Shown: positions 5,436 through 49,294, counted from the first letter of the stretch. The stretch is 64,000 nucleotides of DNA from an uncultured Opitutaceae bacterium (GCA_903890485.1 CAITBM010000006.1:137901-201900); one strand, 5' to 3'. Notes: generated from the letters alone by a model not told the origin. Program-made: numbers and translations.

Positions 5436-6838
5436 GCGGTCTCGGCGAGCGCCCGCTTCAGGGCCTCCTCAAAGAGCGCGATCGCGGTGTCGATCTCCTC
5501 GTTCGTGATGTAGAGCGAGGGGGCGATCGTGAAGACGTTCTTGTAGTAGCCGCCCACGTCGAGGATCAGGCCCTTGCTCTTCCCGCCCGAGGTGAGGGTG
5601 CCGCTCAGCCCGATGTTCATCATGGCGTCGACGAGTTCGCGGTTGGGAGTGAAGCCATCCTTCTGGCACATCTCGACCCGGAGCGCGAGGCCCAGGCCGT
5701 CGACGTCGCCCATCTGGGGATAGTGCTTCGCGAGGTCCTTCAGGCGGGCAAGGAAGTAGGCGCCGGCCTTCATGACCCGGGCCTCAAAATCCTCGTCCTC
5801 CATGATCCTCATCGCCTCAAGGCCGAGGGCCGTTCCCTGCGTGTTCGAGGAGAACGTCGAGTGGGTCGAGCCGGGCGGGAACACCGTCGGGGAAATGAGC
5901 TCCTCCCGAGCCCAGATCGCAGAGATCGGGTTCATCCCGTTGGTGAGGGCCTTTCCGAACACGATGACGTCCGGCTTCACGCCGAAGTGCTCCAGGGCGA
6001 AGAATTTTCCCGTGCGGTAGAATCCCATCTGGATCTCGTCGTCAACGAGGAGAATCCCGTGGCGCTCCAGGATCTTCTTGAGCCCCGGGAAGTAGCCCTC
6101 CGGGGGGACGACGTAGCCGCCGGTCCCCTGGACCGCCTCGACAAAGAACGCGCCGAACTCCGCCTTGCCGGTTTTGTTGACGACGCCGTAGTACTCGGTC
6201 TCGAAGAGCCGCTCGAACTGCTTCAGGCAGTAGAGTTCGCAGGACTCCCGCTTCATCCCGTACGGGCACCGGAAGCAGTACGGGTAGGGAATGAAGTTGG
6301 CCCTGTCGCCGAAGTGCCCGAATTTTTCACGGTAGCGGTAGCTCGACGTGATCGCCGACGCCCCGAGGGTCCGGCCGTGGTAGCCCCCCATGAAGGCGAA
6401 GGCCAGGTTCTTCTTCGTGTGGTTGCGCACCACCTTCCAGGCGTCCTCGATGGCGCTCGCGCCGCCGACGTTAAAGTGGATGCGGCCCTTCTCGCCGAAG
6501 ACGGCCTCGACCTTCCGGGCCAGCTTGGCCGCGAGGAGGATCTTCTCCTTGTGGAGGTACTGGCAGGCGAGCTGCGGAAGGACGTCCACCTGGTTCTTCA
6601 GGGCGGCGTTCAACCGGGGGTTGCCGTAGCCGAAGCTCGCGGCCGAGTACCACATCTGGAGATCCAGGTACTGGGTCCCCTTCTCGTCGAAGAGGTAGCT
6701 GCCCTCCGAGCGGGTGAACATCGTGAGCTCCTTGGCGTAGTGGACGGTGTCGCCCCAGGAGCAGTACTTGGCCTCGAGCTCAAGCAGATCTTCGCCGAGA
6801 TACTCGGAATCCGAGGGGGTGGAGGGAGTGGAATTCAT
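5432..6838 (-). CDS. Class III (PLP-dependent) aminotransferase
   Basis: A 468-residue fold-type I aminotransferase of class III. The PLP lysine is Lys296 in VFGKALTNG, and VDDEIQMG (Asp267, Glu268) is the cofactor-ring motif; HFNVGGASAIEDAWK and GGYHGRTLGA bind phosphate. Residues 186-204 form a four-cysteine insert (Cys188, 191, 200, 204) that could bind a metal; a similar cysteine pair is known in some archaeal class III enzymes. Third gene of an operon in which each gene overlaps the next by four bases. Substrate not predictable; an omega-amino acid or amino-sugar is possible. Confidence 0.9.
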   Translation of the reverse strand: MNSTPSTPSDSEYLGEDLLELEAKYCSWGDTVHYAKELTMFTRSEGSYLFDEKGTQYLDLQMWYSAASFGYGNPRLNAALKNQVDVLPQLACQYLHKEKILLAAKLARKVEAVFGEKGRIHFNVGGASAIEDAWKVVRNHTKKNLAFAFMGGYHGRTLGASAITSSYRYREKFGHFGDRANFIPYPYCFRCPYGMKRESCELYCLKQFERLFETEYYGVVNKTGKAEFGAFFVEAVQGTGGYVVPPEGYFPGLKKILERHGILLVDDEIQMGFYRTGKFFALEHFGVKPDVIVFGKALTNGMNPISAIWAREELISPTVFPPGSTHSTFSSNTQGTALGLEAMRIMEDEDFEARVMKAGAYFLARLKDLAKHYPQMGDVDGLGLALRVEMCQKDGFTPNRELVDAMMNIGLSGTLTSGGKSKGLILDVGGYYKNVFTIAPSLYITNEEIDTAIALFEEALKRALAETA

Positions 6839-7494
6839 GGGAGAAGTGTCTTAAGGTGCTCCTCGACGGAGCTCAGGTCGGCAAACGGGAAGCAGTTTCC
6901 CCGGATCTTGGCATAGTGGTCATAGAGCGTCCCCTTTGCAAAAAGGATCTCGCAGAACTGGGCCGGGCAAATGTCGGATCGGCCGTCGCCGACGTAGACC
7001 TTGCGCGTTCCCGCCGGGCGGTTGCGCCGGAGAAGGTGCGACGTCTTGCAGTTGCCGCTCGTGCTGCAGATCGACCCGAAATAGGGGAACGAGACCTTGG
7101 GCACCCGGCCGTCGATCCGGATCTCGTTGGCGAAGATGTCGATTCCGGCCACGCCGTTTTGGCCGAGGATCGCGGAGATGAACGGGGTGAAGCTGTCGCT
7201 CAGGATCACCGGCTTGATGCCCGCCTCTCCCAGGAGGCGCACGATGCGCGGGAAGGCCGGGTCGATGCGGACCGTTGCCAGGTAATCGCGAAGCTCGGCG
7301 TCGGACACCCGGACTCCGGCAAACTGGCGCTCGAGGCACTCCCGGGAGCCGATTTCCCCGGACTCCCAGGCCGCCTCGGCAACCTTCCAGCCCTCGTCCA
7401 CGGAGAAGCGCCGGATGACCTCGTCCAGCACGTCGAAGTCCGTGATCGTGTTGTCGAAGTCGAAGTAGACCTCAAGCAGGCGGTCGGGCATCAT
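6835..7494 (-). CDS. HAD-superfamily phosphatase (MtnX/SerB-like)
   Basis: A 219-residue haloacid dehalogenase-type phosphatase. Motif I is YFDFDNT (Asp12 nucleophile, Asp14), motif II is ILSDSF, and motif III/IV is VGDGRSD. Layout matches the phosphoserine phosphatase/MtnX branch with a small helical cap. It overlaps the aminotransferase and the hydrolase by four bases each, so it probably dephosphorylates an intermediate of the same short pathway. Two adjacent ATGs (7494 and 7491) are possible starts. Confidence 0.85.
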   Translation of the reverse strand: MMPDRLLEVYFDFDNTITDFDVLDEVIRRFSVDEGWKVAEAAWESGEIGSRECLERQFAGVRVSDAELRDYLATVRIDPAFPRIVRLLGEAGIKPVILSDSFTPFISAILGQNGVAGIDIFANEIRIDGRVPKVSFPYFGSICSTSGNCKTSHLLRRNRPAGTRKVYVGDGRSDICPAQFCEILFAKGTLYDHYAKIRGNCFPFADLSSVEEHLKTLLP

Positions 7495-40308: not shown

Positions 40309-41394
40309 ATGAATAAAGCCGATACCGAAGTCCCCGCAGTACCCGTGGAAATCCCAAAGTCGTCGCAGTCCTCCCGCAGGGTGATTGTGGGTGTTGTCGC
40401 CGCCGTGGCCCTAATCGCCGGCATTGTCTATGGGATCGGCCGTTGGAATTTCGCCCGGGCTCATGAGGAGACGGACGATGCCCAGGTGGAGGGCCACATC
40501 AGCCCCGTCCTTCCCCGGGTGTCGGGGTACGTCACCCGCGTGCTCGTGGCCGACAACCAGCACGTCTCGACGGGCCAGGCACTCCTTGAGATCGACCCCA
40601 AGGAACTCGACCTGAAGGTCGCCGCCGCGCAGGCCTCCCTCCAGAACGCCCTTGCCGACAAGGTTACCGCCGAGGCGAGCCTGGAGAGCGCCCACGCCTC
40701 CGCGGCCACCGCAGCCGCCAACGTGGAAACGGCCCAGGTGCGCCAGCGCAAGGCGGCCAGTGACCTGGCCCGCGATTCCCGGCTCTTTAAGACAGGCGCC
40801 ATCACCGACAGCCAGCTGACCGACACGCAGGCCGCTGCCGACACGGCGGCTTCCCAGCTTGAAGCCGTCCGGAGCGAGGCCCGGTCGGCCCAGTCCCTGG
40901 TCGCGGTCGCGACCGCGCGGGTCGCCGCCGCCCAGACCCAGGCGGCGGAGAAGGCCTCCAACCTCGACTACGCGAAGCTCGAGCGCACGTACTGCACCGT
41001 GACGGCGCCGATCGACGGCGTGGTGTCCAGGAAGAACGTCGAACCCGGGCAGTACGTCCAGTCGGGACAGACGCTCCTTTCGGTGACCACGGACACCGAC
41101 GTGTGGGTTGTCGCCAACTTCAAGGAGACGCAGCTCACCTACATGAAGCCCGGGCAGAATGTGGAATTTGAGGCCGACAGCTACCCGGGCACCACCTACC
41201 GCGCTAAGGTGGAGTCGATCGCCGGGGCGACCGGGGCGCGCTTCGCGCTCCTCCCGCCGGACAACTCCACGGGAAACTTCGTCAAGGTGACCCAGCGGGT
41301 GCCCGTGAAGATCGTGCTCCTTAAGGCGCCCGACTCGGCCCACCCGCTTAAGCCCGGGCAGAGCGTGGACGTGACCGTCCGGGTCAAGGACTAG
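40309..41394 (+). CDS. emrA: Membrane fusion protein of drug efflux pump (HlyD/EmrA type)
   Basis: 361 residues. One membrane helix (residues about 24-43), then biotinyl-lipoyl-like halves (with HISPVLPRVSGYVTRVLVADNQHVSTGQALLEIDP), a long coiled coil (residues 105-220) and a HlyD_D23-type end. It bridges the inner transporter EmrB and the TolC-like channel across the periplasm. EmrB follows after 14 bases. Confidence 0.9.
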   Translation: MNKADTEVPAVPVEIPKSSQSSRRVIVGVVAAVALIAGIVYGIGRWNFARAHEETDDAQVEGHISPVLPRVSGYVTRVLVADNQHVSTGQALLEIDPKELDLKVAAAQASLQNALADKVTAEASLESAHASAATAAANVETAQVRQRKAASDLARDSRLFKTGAITDSQLTDTQAAADTAASQLEAVRSEARSAQSLVAVATARVAAAQTQAAEKASNLDYAKLERTYCTVTAPIDGVVSRKNVEPGQYVQSGQTLLSVTTDTDVWVVANFKETQLTYMKPGQNVEFEADSYPGTTYRAKVESIAGATGARFALLPPDNSTGNFVKVTQRVPVKIVLLKAPDSAHPLKPGQSVDVTVRVKD

Positions 41395-41408
41395 GAAGGC
41401 CGCCTGCC

Positions 41409-42968
41409 ATGGCCGAGCACGGACTGCGCAAGGTGATCATCACGATCACGGTGATCGCCGCGGCGATCATCGAGCTGATCGACACGTCGATCGTGAACGT
41501 GGCGCTCAACGACATGAGCGGCAACCTGGGTACGACCCTGGAGGACGTCGCCTGGGTGATCACGTCCTACGCGATCGCCAACGTGATCATCATCCCGATG
41601 ACCAGCTTCCTCGCGGCGAGGTTTGGGCGGCGCAACTACTACATCGGCTCGATCCTTCTCTTCACGGGCGCCTCCGTCGCCTGCGGCAACGCCCACAACA
41701 TCTGGGAGCTGGTCGCCTTCCGCTTCATCCAGGGAATCGGGGGCGGCGCCCTCCTCTCGACCTCGCAGGCGATCCTCTTTGAGACCTTCTCGGTGGCCCA
41801 GAGGGGCTTCGCGGCCTCGCTCTTCGCGGTCGGCATCTTCGTCGGGCCGACCATCGGACCAACCGTGGGCGGCTGGATCATCGACAGCTACTCGTGGCCC
41901 TGGATCTTCTACATCAACCTGCCGATCGGCCTGGCGGCGGCGTTCCTCTCGTGGCTCTTCGTGCGGGAGCCGGCGCACGCCCGAAACGCGGAGACGATCG
42001 ACTGGCTCGGCATCACCTTCCTTATCGTGGGCCTGGGCTCCCTGCAGACGGTCCTGGAGCGTGGCGAGTCCGAGGACTGGTTCTCCAAGCGCTACATCGT
42101 GGTGCTTTCCATCGTCGCGGCCGTCTCGCTGGTCTCCTTCGTCATCCGGGAGCTCACGACCGACCATCCCGTCGTGGACCTGCACGTGCTCAAGAGCCGC
42201 AGGCTCGCGATCGCCGCGTCACTCACCTTCATCCTCGGGTTCGCCCTCTTCGCCACGGTGTTCATCGTGCCGGTGTTCACCCAGCGTCTCCTGGGCTACA
42301 CGGCGCTCAAGACCGGCATGCTCTTCATCCCGGGGGCCCTGGTGGCCGTGTTCTTCCTGCCCATCATGGGGCGGCTCCTGATGAAGGGGTTTCCGCCCCA
42401 GTTCATGGTCATCACGGGCTTTGCCATCGTCGCAATCTTTGCGCTCCAGCTCTCGCACCTGGACCTCACCTCCCAGTCGAGCGACTTCTTCTGGCCGATC
42501 ATCCTGCGTGCGATCGGCCTGAGCCTGGTCACGATCCCGCTCACCCAGCTGGCGGTCTCCGGGCTCCACGCCCGCGACATGCCCCAGGGTGTGGCCCTCA
42601 ACAACATGATGCGCCAGATGGGCGGATCCTTTGGCATCGCCTTCATCAACACCTTCCTGGACCACCGGGCGGCCGCCCACCGCCAGAGCCTGGTCTCCCG
42701 GTTGGTTGTGGGGGATCCCGCCACCGACGGGCGCCTGGCCCAGCTCACGCATGCGATGCTCGCCAAGGGGGCGACCGCCTGGGAGGCGCCCAAGCGCGCG
42801 CTCGGGCTCCTGGACGCCACGATCCAGCACCAGGCGATCCTCCTGAGTTATATCGACGCCTTCCGGTTTGTGGGGTTCCTATCGCTGGCATGTGTTCCCC
42901 TCATCCTCTTTGCCGGGCGGCCCGGGTCGCTGCCGAAGGCGGCGGCCGCGGCCGCTGACGCCCACTAG
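41409..42968 (+). CDS. emrB: DHA2-family MFS drug exporter (EmrB/QacA type)
   Basis: 519 residues with about fourteen membrane helices; motif LIDTSIVNVALNDM in helix 1 and GRRNYYIGS between helices 2 and 3 and VTSYAIANVIIIPMTSFLAARFG mark the DHA2 family. It pumps drugs or weak acids with proton antiport. Middle gene of the tripartite system. Confidence 0.92.
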   Translation: MAEHGLRKVIITITVIAAAIIELIDTSIVNVALNDMSGNLGTTLEDVAWVITSYAIANVIIIPMTSFLAARFGRRNYYIGSILLFTGASVACGNAHNIWELVAFRFIQGIGGGALLSTSQAILFETFSVAQRGFAASLFAVGIFVGPTIGPTVGGWIIDSYSWPWIFYINLPIGLAAAFLSWLFVREPAHARNAETIDWLGITFLIVGLGSLQTVLERGESEDWFSKRYIVVLSIVAAVSLVSFVIRELTTDHPVVDLHVLKSRRLAIAASLTFILGFALFATVFIVPVFTQRLLGYTALKTGMLFIPGALVAVFFLPIMGRLLMKGFPPQFMVITGFAIVAIFALQLSHLDLTSQSSDFFWPIILRAIGLSLVTIPLTQLAVSGLHARDMPQGVALNNMMRQMGGSFGIAFINTFLDHRAAAHRQSLVSRLVVGDPATDGRLAQLTHAMLAKGATAWEAPKRALGLLDATIQHQAILLSYIDAFRFVGFLSLACVPLILFAGRPGSLPKAAAAAADAH

Positions 42969-42993
42969 CCCCACGGACCCCCACTCTCCTCCC

Positions 42994-44313
42994 ATGAAAA
43001 GCTCAGGCATCCTCGCACTGGCCCTCGCGGCCCTCACCTCCTCGGCACGGGCCGAGGGATCCCCGGGCGGCCCCCTCACCCTGACCCAGACGATCGAGGC
43101 CGTGATCGCGCGCTACCCCTCCATGGACGCCGCGCGCGCAGCCGTCGACGCCGCGGAGGCACGCACGACCCAGGCGGGCGCAGCGCGGCTCCCGCAGGTG
43201 ACCGGCCAGGCCGGCTACACGTACAATTCGCTCAGGCCCTACGTCGCCATCGCGATCCCGGGCCTGAGGGCGGGCGCCCTGTACACGAGCGTCCAGGACT
43301 CCTACGGGGCCAGCGTCACCGCGCGGCAGCTGCTGACGGACTTCGGGCGCACCGACGCCTTGGTGGACATGGCACGGTCGGGGCAGATCGCGGCCAAGGA
43401 CGCGTTGGAGCAGGTCCGCCACCAGCTCGGGTACCAGGCGGTCCAGTCCTTCTACGGGGTGCTGCTGCTCAGGAACTCGGCGGATGTCGCCCGCGAGGAG
43501 ATCACGGCGCTCGAGGAGGCGCTGCGCATCGCCCAGCGGAAATTCGACGCGGGGAGCGCAACCAAGTTTGACGTCCTGACCACCCAGGTCCGCCTGGCCA
43601 ATGCCCGGAACAACCTCACCAACACGCTCGGCTCACTCGAGAAGCAGGAGAACGGGCTCCGCCAGCTGCTCGGCCGGGATCAGGCATCCCCCCTGGAGCT
43701 TGTCGGCGACTTTGACGCCAGCGCACCGGCAATCGCCGAGTCGACGGCCATCTCCGAGGGGCTCCAGAACCGCCCGGAAATGAACGTCGCCCGGGACGAC
43801 GAGCAGACCGCCCGCCTGAGGCTCGACTCAGCCGACCGCGGCAACCGACCCACGCTTGCGGCGCAGGTTTCGGGCGGAGTCGAGAACGGCGTCGTGCCCT
43901 ATCTCTACGACAACAAGGGATATGTCTCGGCGGGGGTCTCGCTCCAGGTCCCCATTTTCACCGGCAAGCGCGTTCAGGGCGAGCGGCTTGAGGCCGGCGC
44001 GGGCGTCCGGTCCGCGCAGGCACGGGAGCGGGAGCTTGGGGAGACCATCACCACCGAGGTCGCCGACGCCTATTCCGACCTGAACGCCGCGCACGCCCGG
44101 CTAGGGAACGCCGACGCCCTGGTGGATGAGGCCAAGGAGGCCCTCTCCCTGGCCCAGTCACGCTATGCGAACGGGGTCATCACGAACTTTGAGCTGCTGG
44201 ACGCCCAGAGCGCGCTCCGGTCGGCCGAGTTGAGCCGCCTGCAGGCGCGCTACGACTGCGTCCTTGCCCGGCAGGCCGTGGCCAGGGCCGCGGGCGTGCC
44301 CCCCGGCCAATAG
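42994..44313 (+). CDS. TolC-family outer membrane efflux protein
   Basis: 439 residues with a signal peptide (residues 1-20) and repeated coiled-coil helices of the OEP domain: DAARAAVDAAEARTTQAGAARLPQV, RKFDAGSATKFDVL, RYANGVITNFELLDAQSAL. It provides the outer channel. ATG at 42994 is after the emrB stop by 25 bases. Confidence 0.9.
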   Translation: MKSSGILALALAALTSSARAEGSPGGPLTLTQTIEAVIARYPSMDAARAAVDAAEARTTQAGAARLPQVTGQAGYTYNSLRPYVAIAIPGLRAGALYTSVQDSYGASVTARQLLTDFGRTDALVDMARSGQIAAKDALEQVRHQLGYQAVQSFYGVLLLRNSADVAREEITALEEALRIAQRKFDAGSATKFDVLTTQVRLANARNNLTNTLGSLEKQENGLRQLLGRDQASPLELVGDFDASAPAIAESTAISEGLQNRPEMNVARDDEQTARLRLDSADRGNRPTLAAQVSGGVENGVVPYLYDNKGYVSAGVSLQVPIFTGKRVQGERLEAGAGVRSAQARERELGETITTEVADAYSDLNAAHARLGNADALVDEAKEALSLAQSRYANGVITNFELLDAQSALRSAELSRLQARYDCVLARQAVARAAGVPPGQ

Positions 44314-44362
44314 GCGCCGGCTCTCGGTTGACGCAGGCCGGCGCCGGTGCTGTCATCCGCCC

Positions 44363-45163
44363 ATGTACACGATCATTGGCGGGGACGGAAAAGAGTACGG
44401 GCCGGTGACAGCTGAACAGATCCGGTCCTGGATCGCCGGCGGCCGCGCCAACAAGGACACGCGGGTGAAAGCGGCCGGATCGGACGCGTGGAAGACCGTT
44501 TCCGAGTGTCCCGAGATCATGAGTCCCGCAGCGGCCGCGCCGGGAGCTTCCGCTCCCGTCATGGCCGGAATCGCCCCCAAGCTCGACATCATCAGCTGCT
44601 ACGAGCGCAGCTGGGCCCTCCTTAAGGCGAATTTCTGGCCGCTGGTCGGGGTGAGCTTCGTCATGGCGTTCATCTACGGCATGCTCGGGTGGTCCCAGTA
44701 CACCGGGTTCTTCTTCGCCTCCCCCCTGCTCGGCGGCCTCCTGAGCGGCGGGTTCTACTACTACTTCGTGCTGAAGATCCGGGGCCAGCCCGCCTCCTTC
44801 GGCGACTTGTTCGCCGGGTTCACCAAGGCGTTCCTGCCGCTTCTGGTCACGGGGATCCTCGTGTCGGTGTTCTCAACGGTGGGCCTCCTCTGCCTCGTCC
44901 TGCCGGGCATCTACCTGATCATCGCCTACGCCTTCGCCTACATCCTGCCCGTGGACAAGGGGCTCGGGTTCTGGGAGTCGATGGAGACCAGCCGCAAGGT
45001 GATCACCCGCCAGTGGTGGCGCGTGTTTGGCCTGATCCTCCTGAGCATTCCGTTTATGCTGCTCGGGGTCGCGGCCCTGGTGGTCGGGATCTTCGTCGCG
45101 ATTCCCCTGATAACCGGGGCCTTCGCCTACGCCTACGAGGACCTCTGCAACCCGAAGGCCTAG
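44363..45163 (+). CDS. Membrane protein with N-terminal GYF_2 domain
   Basis: 266 residues. Residues 1-50 are a GYF_2 domain (MYTIIGGDGKEYGPVTAEQIRSWIAGGRANKDTRV). Then four or five membrane helices, as in DUF975-like membrane proteins. GYF_2 often couples to membrane modules in Verrucomicrobia and Planctomycetes. Function unknown. Ends in a four-base convergent overlap with the DoxX gene. Confidence 0.8.
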   Translation: MYTIIGGDGKEYGPVTAEQIRSWIAGGRANKDTRVKAAGSDAWKTVSECPEIMSPAAAAPGASAPVMAGIAPKLDIISCYERSWALLKANFWPLVGVSFVMAFIYGMLGWSQYTGFFFASPLLGGLLSGGFYYYFVLKIRGQPASFGDLFAGFTKAFLPLLVTGILVSVFSTVGLLCLVLPGIYLIIAYAFAYILPVDKGLGFWESMETSRKVITRQWWRVFGLILLSIPFMLLGVAALVVGIFVAIPLITGAFAYAYEDLCNPKA

Positions 45164-45642
45164 GCCTTCTTCTCGCGGCCCATGAGGGCGTCCAACGAGA
45201 GTCTCCCCGGCCCGAAGGCAAAGACCAGGACCGAGGCGTAGAGGAACAGGAAAGGGTCGGCCCCTAGGAACTTGTCCGGGTTGCTGAACACCACGAGGAG
45301 CGCCTCGCGCTCCGCCGTGAGGTAGGCCACGCTCATGCAGCAGATCAGGGCGAACGAGGCGAAGCGGGAGAAGAGGCCGAGGATCAGGAGGGCGCCACCC
45401 AGGCACTCGGTCGACGAAGCCATGATGGCGTTCAGGTGGGGCGCAGGGATGTTCAGGCTCGCGAAATACTCCGTCACATCCTTCAGCCGGTGCAGCTTCC
45501 CCCAGCCCGTCCCGATGAAGTGCCAGCCCCAGTAGAGGCGGATCACGAGGAGGACGGGGCTCTGCAGCGCGGAACCCACCTTGGCGAGAAGGGCGTAAAT
45601 CTTGTTGATGAGGCTCATGGGCGTGGTCGTCTGGCGGGCCAT
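45160..45642 (-). CDS. DoxX-family membrane protein
   Basis: 160 residues with four hydrophobic helices and the DoxX patterns GWHFIGTGWGKL and GGALLILGLFSRFA. DoxX proteins recur at the end of MNIO (DUF692)-DUF2063 operons, though their role is unclear; redox or copper linkage has been suggested. Two starts are possible (45642 or 45618). Lies 21 bases after the DUF2063 gene, so probably in the same transcript. Confidence 0.85.
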   Translation of the reverse strand: MARQTTTPMSLINKIYALLAKVGSALQSPVLLVIRLYWGWHFIGTGWGKLHRLKDVTEYFASLNIPAPHLNAIMASSTECLGGALLILGLFSRFASFALICCMSVAYLTAEREALLVVFSNPDKFLGADPFLFLYASVLVFAFGPGRLSLDALMGREKKA

Positions 45643-45663
45643 CCGGCCCGGGGGGTTATCCTA

Positions 45664-46599
45664 TCAAGAGGTTTTGGCGGGGCGTTTATTCCCGGCGGAG
45701 CAGAACCATCCGAGGGCCATCCAAGTGGTGAACCACTTGCGGACCTGGGCCGGCTTCACCTTCGGGCCGCCGGCCGCGACGGCGCGCTCCAGGCTTTGTC
45801 CCCGGCTGAGCGAGTCGAGGATCCGGTAGGCGGCGGGATCGAGGCGCTTGTAGAAGAGCCTGTTGTTGTGGCGGTGCACCGCCACAAAGGTGCGCGAGCG
45901 CCGAGGAAGGGGGAGCTTGCGCGCCGCCCTGGGCGCCGGCGCGCTTGAGTCCGGCGTGTTGCTCGCTTCGGAGCGCATCACCTGGCGCCGCTTCACCGAG
46001 ATCACGAAGGTGTCGATCGGGTGCTTCAGGTCGAGGAGCGTCACGTACGGCTGCAGGCCCATGCGAATGCGGCTCGCCGGCTTCTTGCCGAAGTCGGAGG
46101 CCGAAACCACGGGGAGGGCCTCCCCGTCGAACGCCACGGTCTGGGCCCACTCGAAGCGCGCGACCTCGATGGCCAGCGCGGTCCTTGGGGCCGTGAGCCT
46201 GGGGTGGTCGCCGATGAAGTCCACGAGCCGCGAGCACAGGTTTCGAAGCGTGAACGACCGCGACGGGCGGGCTTCCAGGTAGGCCTGCGCGAGTCTCCAG
46301 AACGCGCGCTCCCCGAGCGCCGCGCGCAGGCCCGGGCAGTCGTCCTGGATCGCGTCAAAGAGCCGGAACCAGTACATCCTGTTGTAGAGCTCGAGGCGCT
46401 CGAAGGAGGTCATCCGGTCGTTGGGCTTCACGAACTCCGCCGCGACCTTGTCCATCGGGCGCCCGTCGATCCATTTCGACTGGAGCCCATCGGCCGAGGT
46501 CAGGGGCCGCGTCACGGCCGCCCCCATCATCCTCTGGAACTGGCGCAGGTCCGCCGTCGACTGGATCCTCTTCGGCGCGTGCTTCGGGGGCCTCTTCAC
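45664..46599 (-). CDS. bufC: DUF2063 partner protein of an MNIO enzyme
   Basis: 311 residues: N-terminal DUF2063 domain (residues 15-120: LRQFQRMMGAAVTRPL, RLELYNRMYWFRLFDAIQDDCPGLRAALG) and a C-terminal second half of about 150 residues. In MNIO systems such partners bind the precursor peptide. It starts with GTG and overlaps the enzyme gene by four bases. Confidence 0.88.
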   Translation of the reverse strand: MKRPPKHAPKRIQSTADLRQFQRMMGAAVTRPLTSADGLQSKWIDGRPMDKVAAEFVKPNDRMTSFERLELYNRMYWFRLFDAIQDDCPGLRAALGERAFWRLAQAYLEARPSRSFTLRNLCSRLVDFIGDHPRLTAPRTALAIEVARFEWAQTVAFDGEALPVVSASDFGKKPASRIRMGLQPYVTLLDLKHPIDTFVISVKRRQVMRSEASNTPDSSAPAPRAARKLPLPRRSRTFVAVHRHNNRLFYKRLDPAAYRILDSLSRGQSLERAVAAGGPKVKPAQVRKWFTTWMALGWFCSAGNKRPAKTS

Positions 46600-47444
46600 A
46601 CCGCGGCCTTTTTCGCCCCGTCAATGAACGCGTTGGCCTTCAGCGCCTCGTTGTGCACCTCGTCGAAGGACGGGATCCTGTCGTCCCACTCCAGGAGGGT
46701 CGCGGAGACCCCGCAGAGGTCGGTCGCGTGGGCGTAGAGTTTCCACACCGGGTCAAGGACCGGGTGGTCGTGCGTGTCGAGGATGTACTTCTCGAATTTT
46801 GTGTGCCCGGCGATGTGCATCTGGCCGACCCTCTGGTGGGGCACGTTGTCGACGTAGTCGTAGGGGTTGAAGCCGTGGTTCTTAGACGACACGTAAATGT
46901 TGTTCACGTCCAGGAGTATCCCGCAGTCGGCGAGCTCGACCACCTCGGTCAGGAACTCCCACTCGGTCATCTCGGACTGGTGAAACTCGGTGTAGCTGCT
47001 CACGTTCTCGACGCAGATCGGGACCTCGAGGAAGTCGCGGACCTGCCGGATCTTCTCGGCGGTGCGCCGGGCGGCCGCGAACGTGTAGGGCATCGGCAGG
47101 AGGTCGTGGGTGTAGGTGCCGTCCACGCTGCCCCAGCAGAGGTGGTCGGAGAGCCAGGGAGTCTTCGTGCGCTTCACGAGCGCCTTCAGCTTCCTCAGGT
47201 GGGTGCGGTCCGGCTTGTCGGCGGACCCGAAGTACATGGAGACGCCGTGCTGGACGACCCGGTACTGCTCGAGGATCTGGTCGAGGAGCTCGAGCGGCCT
47301 GCCCCCGTCCACCATGAAATTCTCGGAGATGATCTCAAACCAGTCGACCGTGGGTTTCTTCGAGAGGATGTGCGCGTAGTGCGGGACCCTCAGCCCGATG
47401 CCTATCCCGTAGTCGCAGTTCCCGTTGAATCGGTTGGCAGGCAT
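46596..47444 (-). CDS. bufB: DUF692 multinuclear non-haem iron oxidase (MNIO) for RiPP modification
   Basis: 282-residue TIM barrel. Expected metal ligands are present: QHGVSMYFG (His66), SDHLCWG (His101), CVENVSSY (Glu146), ILLDVNNIYV (Asp179), GQMHIAGH (His210), and the C-terminal LLEWDD. MNIO enzymes convert cysteines in precursor peptides to oxazolone/thioamide or other groups. The start ATG at 47444 lies directly after the poly-U tract of the upstream terminator, with no Shine-Dalgarno; ends coupled with the DUF2063 gene. Confidence 0.93.
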   Translation of the reverse strand: MPANRFNGNCDYGIGIGLRVPHYAHILSKKPTVDWFEIISENFMVDGGRPLELLDQILEQYRVVQHGVSMYFGSADKPDRTHLRKLKALVKRTKTPWLSDHLCWGSVDGTYTHDLLPMPYTFAAARRTAEKIRQVRDFLEVPICVENVSSYTEFHQSEMTEWEFLTEVVELADCGILLDVNNIYVSSKNHGFNPYDYVDNVPHQRVGQMHIAGHTKFEKYILDTHDHPVLDPVWKLYAHATDLCGVSATLLEWDDRIPSFDEVHNEALKANAFIDGAKKAAV

Positions 47445-47447
47445 GTG

Positions 47448-47479
47448 AAAAAAACGCGGCCGGCTTTCGGCCGGCCGCG
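47448..47479 (-). terminator. Intrinsic terminator between precursor and enzyme genes (possible attenuator)
   Basis: On the minus strand, a perfect 10-base-pair stem (47479-47470 with 47464-47455) and 5-base loop is followed by seven Ts (47454-47448). The stem is wholly G and C. It ends three bases before the MNIO start codon. It lies 17 bases after the precursor stop. So most transcripts should stop here, leaving a high precursor to enzyme ratio. Confidence 0.85.
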
Positions 47480-47496
47480 TCGCGTTCGAAAACCGT

Positions 47497-47757
47497 TTAG
47501 ACCTTGGTGCTCTTGCAGCCGCCCTTGCCCTTGCACGAGTTCTGGCCCTTGCAGCCATTGTCGCTCGACTTGCAGCCACCCTGGCCCTTGCAGGAGTTCT
47601 GGCCCTTACAGTCGTGCTTGCCCGCATCCTTGGAGGCGTCCTTCGAGGCATCTCCGCTGCCGGCAGCGCCATCGGCATAAGCGCGCGAGGCCACGGAACC
47701 AGCATAGAGCCCCGCCATGGCCGCGGCGGTGACGATGAAACGTGTCGTTTTGTTCAT
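47497..47757 (-). CDS. Cys-rich RiPP precursor of MNIO system
   Basis: 86 residues with a signal peptide (residues 1-28, AYA cleavage). Six cysteines at 50, 56, 62, 69, 75 and 81 form two near-identical 15-residue repeats, CKGQNSCKGQGGCKS (50-64) and CKGQNSCKGKGGCKS (69-83). The segment before them (residues 35-48) is charged (Asp, Lys). Context with MNIO and DUF2063 genes and the Cys repeats mark it as the substrate peptide, a likely metal-binding RiPP after modification. No matching motif has been shown here; modified residues are inference. Confidence 0.85.
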   Translation of the reverse strand: MNKTTRFIVTAAAMAGLYAGSVASRAYADGAAGSGDASKDASKDAGKHDCKGQNSCKGQGGCKSSDNGCKGQNSCKGKGGCKSTKV

Positions 47758-47845
47758 AACAGACTTCTATTTATTGGGTTTCGGAGTGACCGTCGGGTGC
47801 CAGCGTCATGCCGGCGCCCGCGGTGTGGTATAACAGCAACTACGA

Positions 47846-47860
47846 GGGGTATTATTCCCC
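47846..47860. promoter_or_regulatory. Palindrome upstream of the precursor gene
   Basis: GGGG and CCCC arms around TATTATT form a 15-base interrupted palindrome 89 bases upstream of the precursor ATG. A metal-sensing repressor site would look like this. The leader between palindrome and ATG shows no strong Shine-Dalgarno. Confidence 0.4.
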
Positions 47861-47915
47861 CGGATGCATTTTATTCAACCGCGATCGCGGATTCGCCCCT
47901 TCCGACGCCCCTTTG

Positions 47916-48881
47916 TCACAGGACCCGGTCAGTCATCGGAGCCCCCGCCTCAAACGCTGCCAGGTTGGCCAGGAAGTGGCGGACCAGCTCCGGGTTCACG
48001 TTGTCGCGACCTCCTGCGGTGTGGGGAGTTATGAAACAACGGGGGGTCGACCACAGGGGGCTTTCCGGAGGCAGCGGCTCGGGTACCATCACGTCGAGGT
48101 AGGCGGCCCCGATGCGCCCTGAATTGAGGCCCTGGATCAGGGCCTCCTGGTCCACGGTCGGGCCCCGGCCCACATTGTAAAAACGCGCTCCCACCTTGAA
48201 GCAGGCGATCCTCCGGGCGTTCACGTAGTTGCGGGTCTCGTCGTTCTCGGGGAGCACGTTCACCACGTGGTCGGCCTCGGCAAGGACCCGGGTCAGGCTC
48301 TCCTCGGAGACGACATGGACCCCGGGCTCGCTTCGTATCCGGCGCCGGACGGCGTAGATCTTCACCCGAAACGGGGCGAGAAGCTCGGCCAGCCGGAGGC
48401 CTATCGCGCCGAAGCCGAGGAGAACCACCGTCTGGCCCTTGAGCAGGCGCGAGGCATCGCGCCGTTCCTGGTAGGGCCACACGCGGTCGGTGCGCTGGGT
48501 CTGGAAGGAGGGCAGGAGCTGCCGGCCGAGGGCGAGGATCATCGCCAGGACGTGTTCCGCGCAGGCGTCCGCGTAGACCTGCGAGGCGTTGGTGAAGACG
48601 CTGCCCCGGGCGCGCAGGCCCTCGCGGAAGGCAACCGTGTCGTAGCGGGTGTAGCCGGCGCTTGACACCTCAATCCACCTAAGGCCCGGGTTGGCGAGGC
48701 AATCCTCGGGGTCGGGTTGCCCGAAGGCCACGCTTGCCCCGGCGATCGACGGGTCACGCTGGGGTCCGGCCAGGACCGAGCTGTTGCTGCTGCCGGAAAT
48801 GACGAGCGTATGCGCGCGGGTACCCTCCCTGAGCAGGGCCATCCCCTCCTCCCCGAAGTCTCCGTTGCACCAAATCTTCAC
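47916..48881 (-). CDS. D-isomer-specific 2-hydroxyacid dehydrogenase family
   Basis: 321 residues with NAD-binding VVLLGFGAIGLRLAELLAPF and the catalytic-domain signature ARFYNVGRGPTVDQEAL and ITPHTAGG. Reduces 2-keto acids or oxidises 2-hydroxyacids. Starts with GTG, four-base overlap with the YbaY-like gene, last gene of the operon with the binding protein at 49291. Confidence 0.9.
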   Translation of the reverse strand: MKIWCNGDFGEEGMALLREGTRAHTLVISGSSNSSVLAGPQRDPSIAGASVAFGQPDPEDCLANPGLRWIEVSSAGYTRYDTVAFREGLRARGSVFTNASQVYADACAEHVLAMILALGRQLLPSFQTQRTDRVWPYQERRDASRLLKGQTVVLLGFGAIGLRLAELLAPFRVKIYAVRRRIRSEPGVHVVSEESLTRVLAEADHVVNVLPENDETRNYVNARRIACFKVGARFYNVGRGPTVDQEALIQGLNSGRIGAAYLDVMVPEPLPPESPLWSTPRCFITPHTAGGRDNVNPELVRHFLANLAAFEAGAPMTDRVL

Positions 48882-49294
48882 CGGCCCGCCCGGGTCACGG
48901 TCACGCGGTGCGAATCCGAGGCGTTGCCCAGCGTCACGACGTAACGGTTCAGGTTGTAGTACTGCACCTTCCCCCCGAAGGACACGCGGGCCTCGATGTT
49001 GAGGCCCCGGCGAAGGACCTCGTCCTCCGCTCGGTACTCGACACGGAACGCGACGGGAGTCGCGCCGGGGTTCTGGATCGTCTGGGATCCCAGCACCTCG
49101 GGCGGCATGCCCGTGGCCGACGCGTCGATCACCCGCACCGTGACGGAGGCATCCTGGGGCAGGGGCGCCGAGTCCCCGAGATCGACCTGGCCGGTGAGGA
49201 CCCTGAGCGGGTTGCCCTCGCTCGAGAGCTCGAGGTGCCCGCAGCCAAAGGCCGCGAATGCGGCAACGAGAAGGAATGCGCAGGTTTTTCTCAT
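48878..49294 (-). CDS. YbaY-like periplasmic lipoprotein
   Basis: 138 residues with a lipobox-containing signal peptide (FAAFGCGHL, Cys18) and a YbaY pattern LTGQVDLGDSAPLPQDASVTVRVIDAS. YbaY family lipoproteins have unclear function. Overlaps both neighbours by four bases. Confidence 0.75.
   Translation of the reverse strand: MRKTCAFLLVAAFAAFGCGHLELSSEGNPLRVLTGQVDLGDSAPLPQDASVTVRVIDASATGMPPEVLGSQTIQNPGATPVAFRVEYRAEDEVLRRGLNIEARVSFGGKVQYYNLNRYVVTLGNASDSHRVTVTRAGR

Follow-up and report, generated by a model that had tools for sequence, protein, structure and literature searches.

A Buf2-like bufferin operon with a variant Cys-Lys precursor and a predicted ECF-type promoter in an uncultured Opitutaceae bacterium

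The 64,000-nucleotide stretch of DNA analysed here (the window; GCA_903890485.1 CAITBM010000006.1:137901-201900) comes from an uncultured Opitutaceae bacterium and carries four consecutive genes on the minus strand, from 47757 to 45160, which encode a small cysteine-rich precursor peptide, an MNIO enzyme, a DUF2063 protein and a DoxX protein. An earlier reading made from the DNA alone (the sequence-only reading) had proposed an operon for a ribosomally synthesised and post-translationally modified peptide (RiPP), described as bufferin- or HvfA-like, in a Verrucomicrobiota-like host. The coordinates that it gave for all four genes agree with the open reading frame (ORF) calls and Pfam matches, Pfam and NCBIfam matches support a bufferin-type operon with MNIO and DUF2063 proteins, and the host is a Verrucomicrobiota bacterium (soil or lake) whose nearest named relatives are Opitutaceae metagenome-assembled genomes (MAGs). 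The likeness to HvfA is confined to gene order, and that reading, correct as to the genes, had missed a terminator and a promoter with its regulon. The bufA-like precursor gene (47497..47757, 86 residues with six Cys) is identified by its ORF, a BufA2 profile match and its conservation in relatives. It is followed by bufB, for the MNIO (DUF692) maturase (46596..47444, 282 residues; PF05114, E 7e-106), by bufC, for a partner protein with DUF2063 and a RiPP recognition element (RRE) fold (45664..46599, 311 residues; PF09836, E 1e-13), which overlaps bufB by 4 nt, and by bufD, for a DoxX-family membrane protein (45160..45642, 160 residues; PF07681, E 4e-22).

The precursor begins with a predicted Sec signal peptide (residues 1-28, ending in SRAYA before DG; 47674..47757, minus strand), read by eye from a K/R-containing start, a hydrophobic stretch and A-Y-A before D, in a region that is conserved in relatives. 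The six Cys lie at residues 50, 56, 62, 69, 75 and 81, exactly in the 6-6-7-6-6 spacing first noticed, and the two 15-residue repeats reported as near-identical, CKGQNSCKGQGGCKS (residues 50-64; 47566..47610, minus strand) and CKGQNSCKGKGGCKS (residues 69-83; 47509..47553, minus strand), share 14 of 15 residues. The peptide aligns with its counterparts in 16 Opitutaceae, where all six Cys are invariant, and is therefore not a chance ORF. Its sole NCBIfam match is Cu_RiPP_BufA2 (NF050166; 39 bits, E 7e-10), a profile which gives 88 and 100 bits to two plasmid-borne Pseudomonadota BufA2 precursors used as controls and 19-44 bits to six precursors from Verrucomicrobiota and Acidobacteriota; in 289 genomes of the phylum, no precursor was above the BufA2 cut-off. 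A PF24646 match (E 0.014, under the cut-off) was rejected, there is no Pfam match to DUF2282, the Buf1 precursor family, and no EGKCG repeat occurs in the precursor sequence.

The core pattern of this precursor, HDCKGQNSCKGQGGCKSSDNGCKGQNSCKGKGGC, can be compared with that of Pseudomonadota BufA2, HC[YS]G..[NS].CKG...C.TA...CKGQ..CKG.G....K..C...GG. Cys 1 to 5 share the same 6-6-7-6 register, whereas the first Cys stands in a CKG context instead of C[YS]G, and the sixth lies 6 residues past the fifth rather than about 14, since the C-terminal segment that bears it in BufA2 is lost and a second CKG repeat stands in its place. The repeats do differ from EGKCG, as had been proposed, but their KGQ type is not foreign to known systems, given that Pseudomonadota BufA2 also contain CKGQN.CKG; they represent the Cys-Lys motif found in the Buf2 (BufA2) branch. 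In Buf1 a disulphide joins the first and the last Cys (PMC12452194), and by analogy only, the CKG at Cys 1 together with the loss of the C-terminal segment would do away with such an end-Cys pair and leave each of the six Cys open to modification.

To characterise the distribution of the system, the MNIO was scanned against 84,980 species genomes and the 80 best loci were taken, nearly all of which belong to Verrucomicrobiota and Acidobacteriota, plus a few odd MAGs. A Cys-rich precursor upstream of the MNIO was recovered in about 70 of these 80, several of the missing ones being due to contig edges or to failures of the simple ORF picker. The co-occurrence of precursor, DUF692 and DUF2063 genes on which the sequence-only reading depended thus holds in the genomes of relatives. 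With regard to the recovered precursors, 46 have six Cys, with a range of 4 to 11 (a few misread ORFs aside), Lys follows Cys in 346 of 435 cases and the commonest gap between Cys is 6 (287/366). Some consist of pure CKGKDG repeats and some from Acidobacteriaceae have only four Cys. The former include three loci (L178, L177, L166) with largely hexapeptide-repeat precursors of 9-11 Cys, likely a repeat-expansion branch. The four-Cys precursors of Edaphobacter/Granulicella (L215, L216, L217, L233), where the third and fourth Cys are gone, are natural variants that bear on which Cys are needed. Close Opitutaceae retain the gene order, which is also widespread among Verrucomicrobiota and Acidobacteriota. 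All four genes, bufA to bufD, occur together in the window and in 16/16 close MNIO-bearing relatives, some of these truncated at contig edges, as well as in six of seven further Verrucomicrobiota, with a short contig and no bufD in the remaining one; these absence calls rest on draft genomes. In sequence, the precursor is of a variant form that typifies the Verrucomicrobiota and the Acidobacteriota.

The maturase scores 343 bits against NCBIfam NF050167 (MNIO_BufB), above the curated equivalog cut-off of 310, and falls far below the methanobactin, pearlin and chryseobasin models. Across 90 aligned MNIOs, 18 D/E/H/N positions are the same in 89 or more. The enzymes of the relatives form one clade (support 100/99, long stem), separate from nine reference MNIOs of Pseudomonadota, with which the enzyme of the window shares 35-48% identity; the branches are long, and the exact attachment of the clade is unsure. 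As for BufC, a sequence search against the PDB gave no match and a single-sequence AlphaFold2 model (pLDDT 41.5) was discarded, while a model built with 38 aligned relatives reached a pLDDT of 89.7. Its best solved match is Neisseria NGO1945 (3DEE; Z 13.9, 191 residues aligned, root-mean-square deviation 4.0), followed here by TglI (8HCI_A; Z 12.6, 236 aligned, 4.2), and RRE domains, that of TbiB1 among them (Z about 7), match its C-terminal part. As modelled, BufC combines DUF2063 and RRE in the PME-type 1 arrangement known from bufferin clusters.

Between bufA and bufB, the fold and a terminator scan point to an intrinsic terminator (47453..47481, minus strand) with a 12-bp stem (-30.8 kcal/mol, z -3.0) and a T-run that stops 3 nt short of the bufB ATG. 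Terminator-like elements were found in 24 of 70 A-B intergenic regions, compared with 0.7 expected from shuffles. We take the element to be a probable means of keeping precursor synthesis above that of the enzyme.

Upstream of the operon, a predicted extracytoplasmic function (ECF)-type promoter, GGAATAA-N15-CTGTTAT (47830..47858, minus strand), lies 72 nt before the bufA ATG. The element is conserved before bufA in relatives as GGAATAA-N15-CT(C/G)NNAY, and the form GGAATAA-N15/16-CTCNNAY recurs before msrA, msrB, msrP, bufD, thioredoxin-like genes and the ECF sigma gene. A weak match to the sigma-70 consensus (47878-47851) was set aside for the ECF-type element, and the relaxed motif GGAATAN produced control matches and chance targets, so that sites were counted with the stricter form. 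With this form, the window has one site where 0.01 is expected, the genome of the host has two (before bufA and before an msrB-msrA operon; control 0) and five further genomes have 18 (reversed pattern 0), which amounts to 20 sites in six genomes against none for the reversed pattern. The targets are bufA, bufD, msrA, msrB, the ECF sigma gene and genes for a molybdopterin MsrP-type protein and thioredoxin/redoxin-like proteins. With gene classes assigned from short sequence signatures, 44 of 63 classified sites precede bufA, bufD, ecf, msrA, msrB, msrP or thioredoxin-like genes. Such target-gene sites make up 43/55 in ECF-positive genomes and 1/8 in the others (Fisher p 0.0006, relatedness not corrected). 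In a wider scan, the element was found upstream of bufA in 27 of 63 loci (reversed control 0), none of them labelled acidobacterial, with its first base mostly 90-107 nt before the ATG. The promoter shared with msr genes predicts a periplasmic oxidant/metal-stress regulon and suggests that the peptide is part of an oxidative and metal stress response.

A candidate for the cognate sigma factor is found in the same genome, which carries an orthologue of the ECF gene (G000:C98), itself preceded by a sequence that nearly matches the element. The protein encoded downstream has one hydrophobic segment, a predicted transmembrane (TM) helix, and a weak match to anti-sigma models; two Cys (C-x13-C) and a His in its predicted periplasmic part are kept in at least 20 of 22 homologues. 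The ECF gene is present in 14 of 17 buf-positive relatives. Two of the relatives without it (G009, G011) likewise have no motif at bufA, and the genome of the third (G005) is 87% complete; the buf-negative congeners G001 and G012 have no ECF orthologue. Furthermore, the ECF gene lies within the buf locus in at least eight Verrucomicrobiota loci of the wider scan. In four Acidobacteriaceae loci (L201, L210, L211, L214; about 6300-6870), a different ECF-like gene, 27-30% identical to that of Verrucomicrobiota, follows bufD. Sigma genes have been reported in Buf1 and not in Buf2 clusters (PMC12452194), and because of this acidobacterial gene they may be commoner in Buf2-like clusters than reported.

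Taken together, we consider that the locus is a bufferin operon of the Buf2, or Cys-Lys captophorin, type, controlled by an ECF sigma factor within a periplasmic oxidant/copper stress response, with a probability of roughly 0.8. BufA would be synthesised in the cytoplasm and presented by BufC to the iron enzyme BufB, which would oxidise those Cys that stand in Cys-Lys-Gly, each losing 4 H and most likely becoming a 5-thiooxazole. The modified product would then be exported by Sec to the periplasm and may bind Cu(I) there, with BufD probably assisting at the membrane, and the terminator after bufA would hold precursor output above enzyme output. Transcription would be turned on by the ECF sigma factor, which may be held by a membrane anti-sigma protein that could sense its signal through the periplasmic Cys-Cys-His motif. 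The same sigma factor would turn on periplasmic methionine sulfoxide reductases and thioredoxin-like proteins, which is why the peptide is placed in the periplasmic oxidant/copper stress response. A bolder version, which we put forward tentatively and with considerably less confidence, is that the end Cys became repeat Cys, so that all six (4-11 in relatives) may be modifiable, that the peptide may belong, together with periplasmic MsrA, MsrB and MsrP, to the core of an ECF/anti-sigma regulon not described before, and that thiooxazole peptides might guard against periplasmic methionine oxidation rather than serve copper buffering alone.

Several observations weigh against this interpretation. 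The precursor is under the BufA2 equivalog cut-off (39 against 60 bits), the DUF2063 protein is below the HvfC profile cut-off and the DoxX protein reaches 69.6 bits against the NF050144 HvfX family, under its cut-off of 80; because BufA, BufC and BufD are all under cut-offs, the chemistry proposed here draws on characterised members by analogy. There is no metal-related gene next to the operon. The terminator is mainly an Opitutaceae trait, conserved in that family. The promoter motif is missing in about a third of Verrucomicrobiota loci and in all Acidobacteriota loci tested, and the regulon is therefore not general. Moreover, the promoter of the ECF gene in this genome is an imperfect match (CTCTAGT), and the link between the ECF and the motif is one of joint presence across related genomes (p 0.025 and 0.0006, with no correction for phylogeny).

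Among other explanations, the one that survives best, unlikely as we hold it to be, is that the MNIO installs a modification other than a thiooxazole, its enzyme and core differing from those of characterised Buf2 systems. The separate, long-stemmed enzyme clade, its modest identity to the Pseudomonadota references and the different contexts of the first and last Cys would be consistent with this, but the PME1-dependent MNIOs characterised so far have been assigned 5-thiooxazole (PMC13097082). Less probable still is a simple metallothionein-like chelator with mostly unmodified Cys, an explanation in line with repeats rich in Cys and Lys, a Cys number that is free to vary and the precedent of metal stress, under which there would be no evident reason for the precursor gene to be so tightly linked to those of an RRE-bearing partner and of an MNIO whose candidate iron ligands are conserved. 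An HvfA-type oxazolin/EGKCG system is highly improbable despite the shared A-B-C-DoxX gene order and related enzymes, as EGKCG is absent, the maturase has 247 bits against an HvfB cut-off of 360 and yet passes that of BufB, Lys follows most Cys in relatives and NACKG substrates are left unprocessed by fontiphorin enzymes (PMC13097082).

With regard to the surroundings of the operon, a convergent gene that ends at 45163 encodes a GYF/DUF975 membrane protein and is outside the RiPP system. Directly upstream of the precursor gene is a D-2-hydroxyacid dehydrogenase-like gene (47916-48881, minus strand), syntenic in most close Opitutaceae relatives; it was rejected as a part of the system, as several buf loci have no adjoining copy. 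A row of EmrA/HlyD-like, DHA2-type MFS and TolC-like genes (40309-44313, plus strand) forms a drug-efflux cassette near the operon. An Rfam search of 44000-49000 gave no match.

The gene system as such is already known. Judged from open-access papers, three things appear not to have been described before: the variant form of the precursor, the terminator and the regulon in Verrucomicrobiota; none of these papers was found to link DoxX with ECF factors, MsrP, copper and hypochlorite. The survey that defined Buf2 and its ABCD core does not name Verrucomicrobiota or Acidobacteriota in its main text (PMC12452194), and six-Cys DUF692/DUF2063 clusters have been described in Antarctic soil Gammaproteobacteria (PMC8692599). 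As in Buf2 bufferins (NF050166, NF050167), there is here a Sec precursor with six Cys and CKG, an MNIO, a DUF2063-RRE partner and DoxX, and the register of the first five Cys is the same; the six (or twelve) Cys with a Sec signal peptide, here read by eye, and the bufA-B-C order with a PME-type 1 partner that characterise Buf2 are both found. The operon differs from Buf2 in the CKG of its first Cys, in the loss of the C-terminal KxxCxxxGG segment, in the closer sixth Cys, which gives an internal duplication, in its sub-threshold precursor, in the variable Cys number of its relatives and in its ECF-regulon link. The MNIO, PME1 and Cys-rich Cys-Lys precursor also place it among the captophorins, under which products with 5-thiooxazoles, including a Cys-Lys precursor group, have been united and tied to oxidative and metal stress (PMC13097082). 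Methanobactin, pearlin and chryseobasin systems share the MNIO family and its active-site motifs but have no Sec precursor of this kind, and BufB is far from their models.

Bufferins have been described chiefly from Pseudomonadota, and the present locus extends the Buf2-type operon to another phylum, where it is tied to periplasmic methionine sulfoxide repair by a promoter element common to both and by the co-occurrence of an ECF gene. In Caulobacter, SigF controls DUF2282-DUF692-DUF2063-DoxX operons together with a YedY gene (PMC3511200); this Buf1 system with SigF-NrsF has genes B, C and D and ECF control with a periplasmic YedY/MsrP-type gene in common with ours, whereas the precursor family, sigma and anti-sigma differ, the putative anti-sigma here having a single predicted TM segment and not matching NrsF. 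In Haemophilus influenzae, RpoE2 controls MsrAB and a DoxX/DUF692/DUF2063 cluster (PMC7907618), so that gene content and ECF co-regulation with MsrAB are shared with HvfABC-DoxX, in contrast to the EGKCG precursor repeats of that system and its HvfB-type maturase, whose cut-off the enzyme here does not reach. In a Methylomagnum locus (L240, 2190-5292), msrQ directly follows a Buf1 operon, another link between bufferins and Msr. Seen next to SigF in Caulobacter and RpoE2 in Haemophilus, the present case makes the association between MNIO peptides and Msr enzymes a repeated one, in which the precursors come from different families, and the biological role, in copper stress, oxidant stress or both, becomes directly testable.

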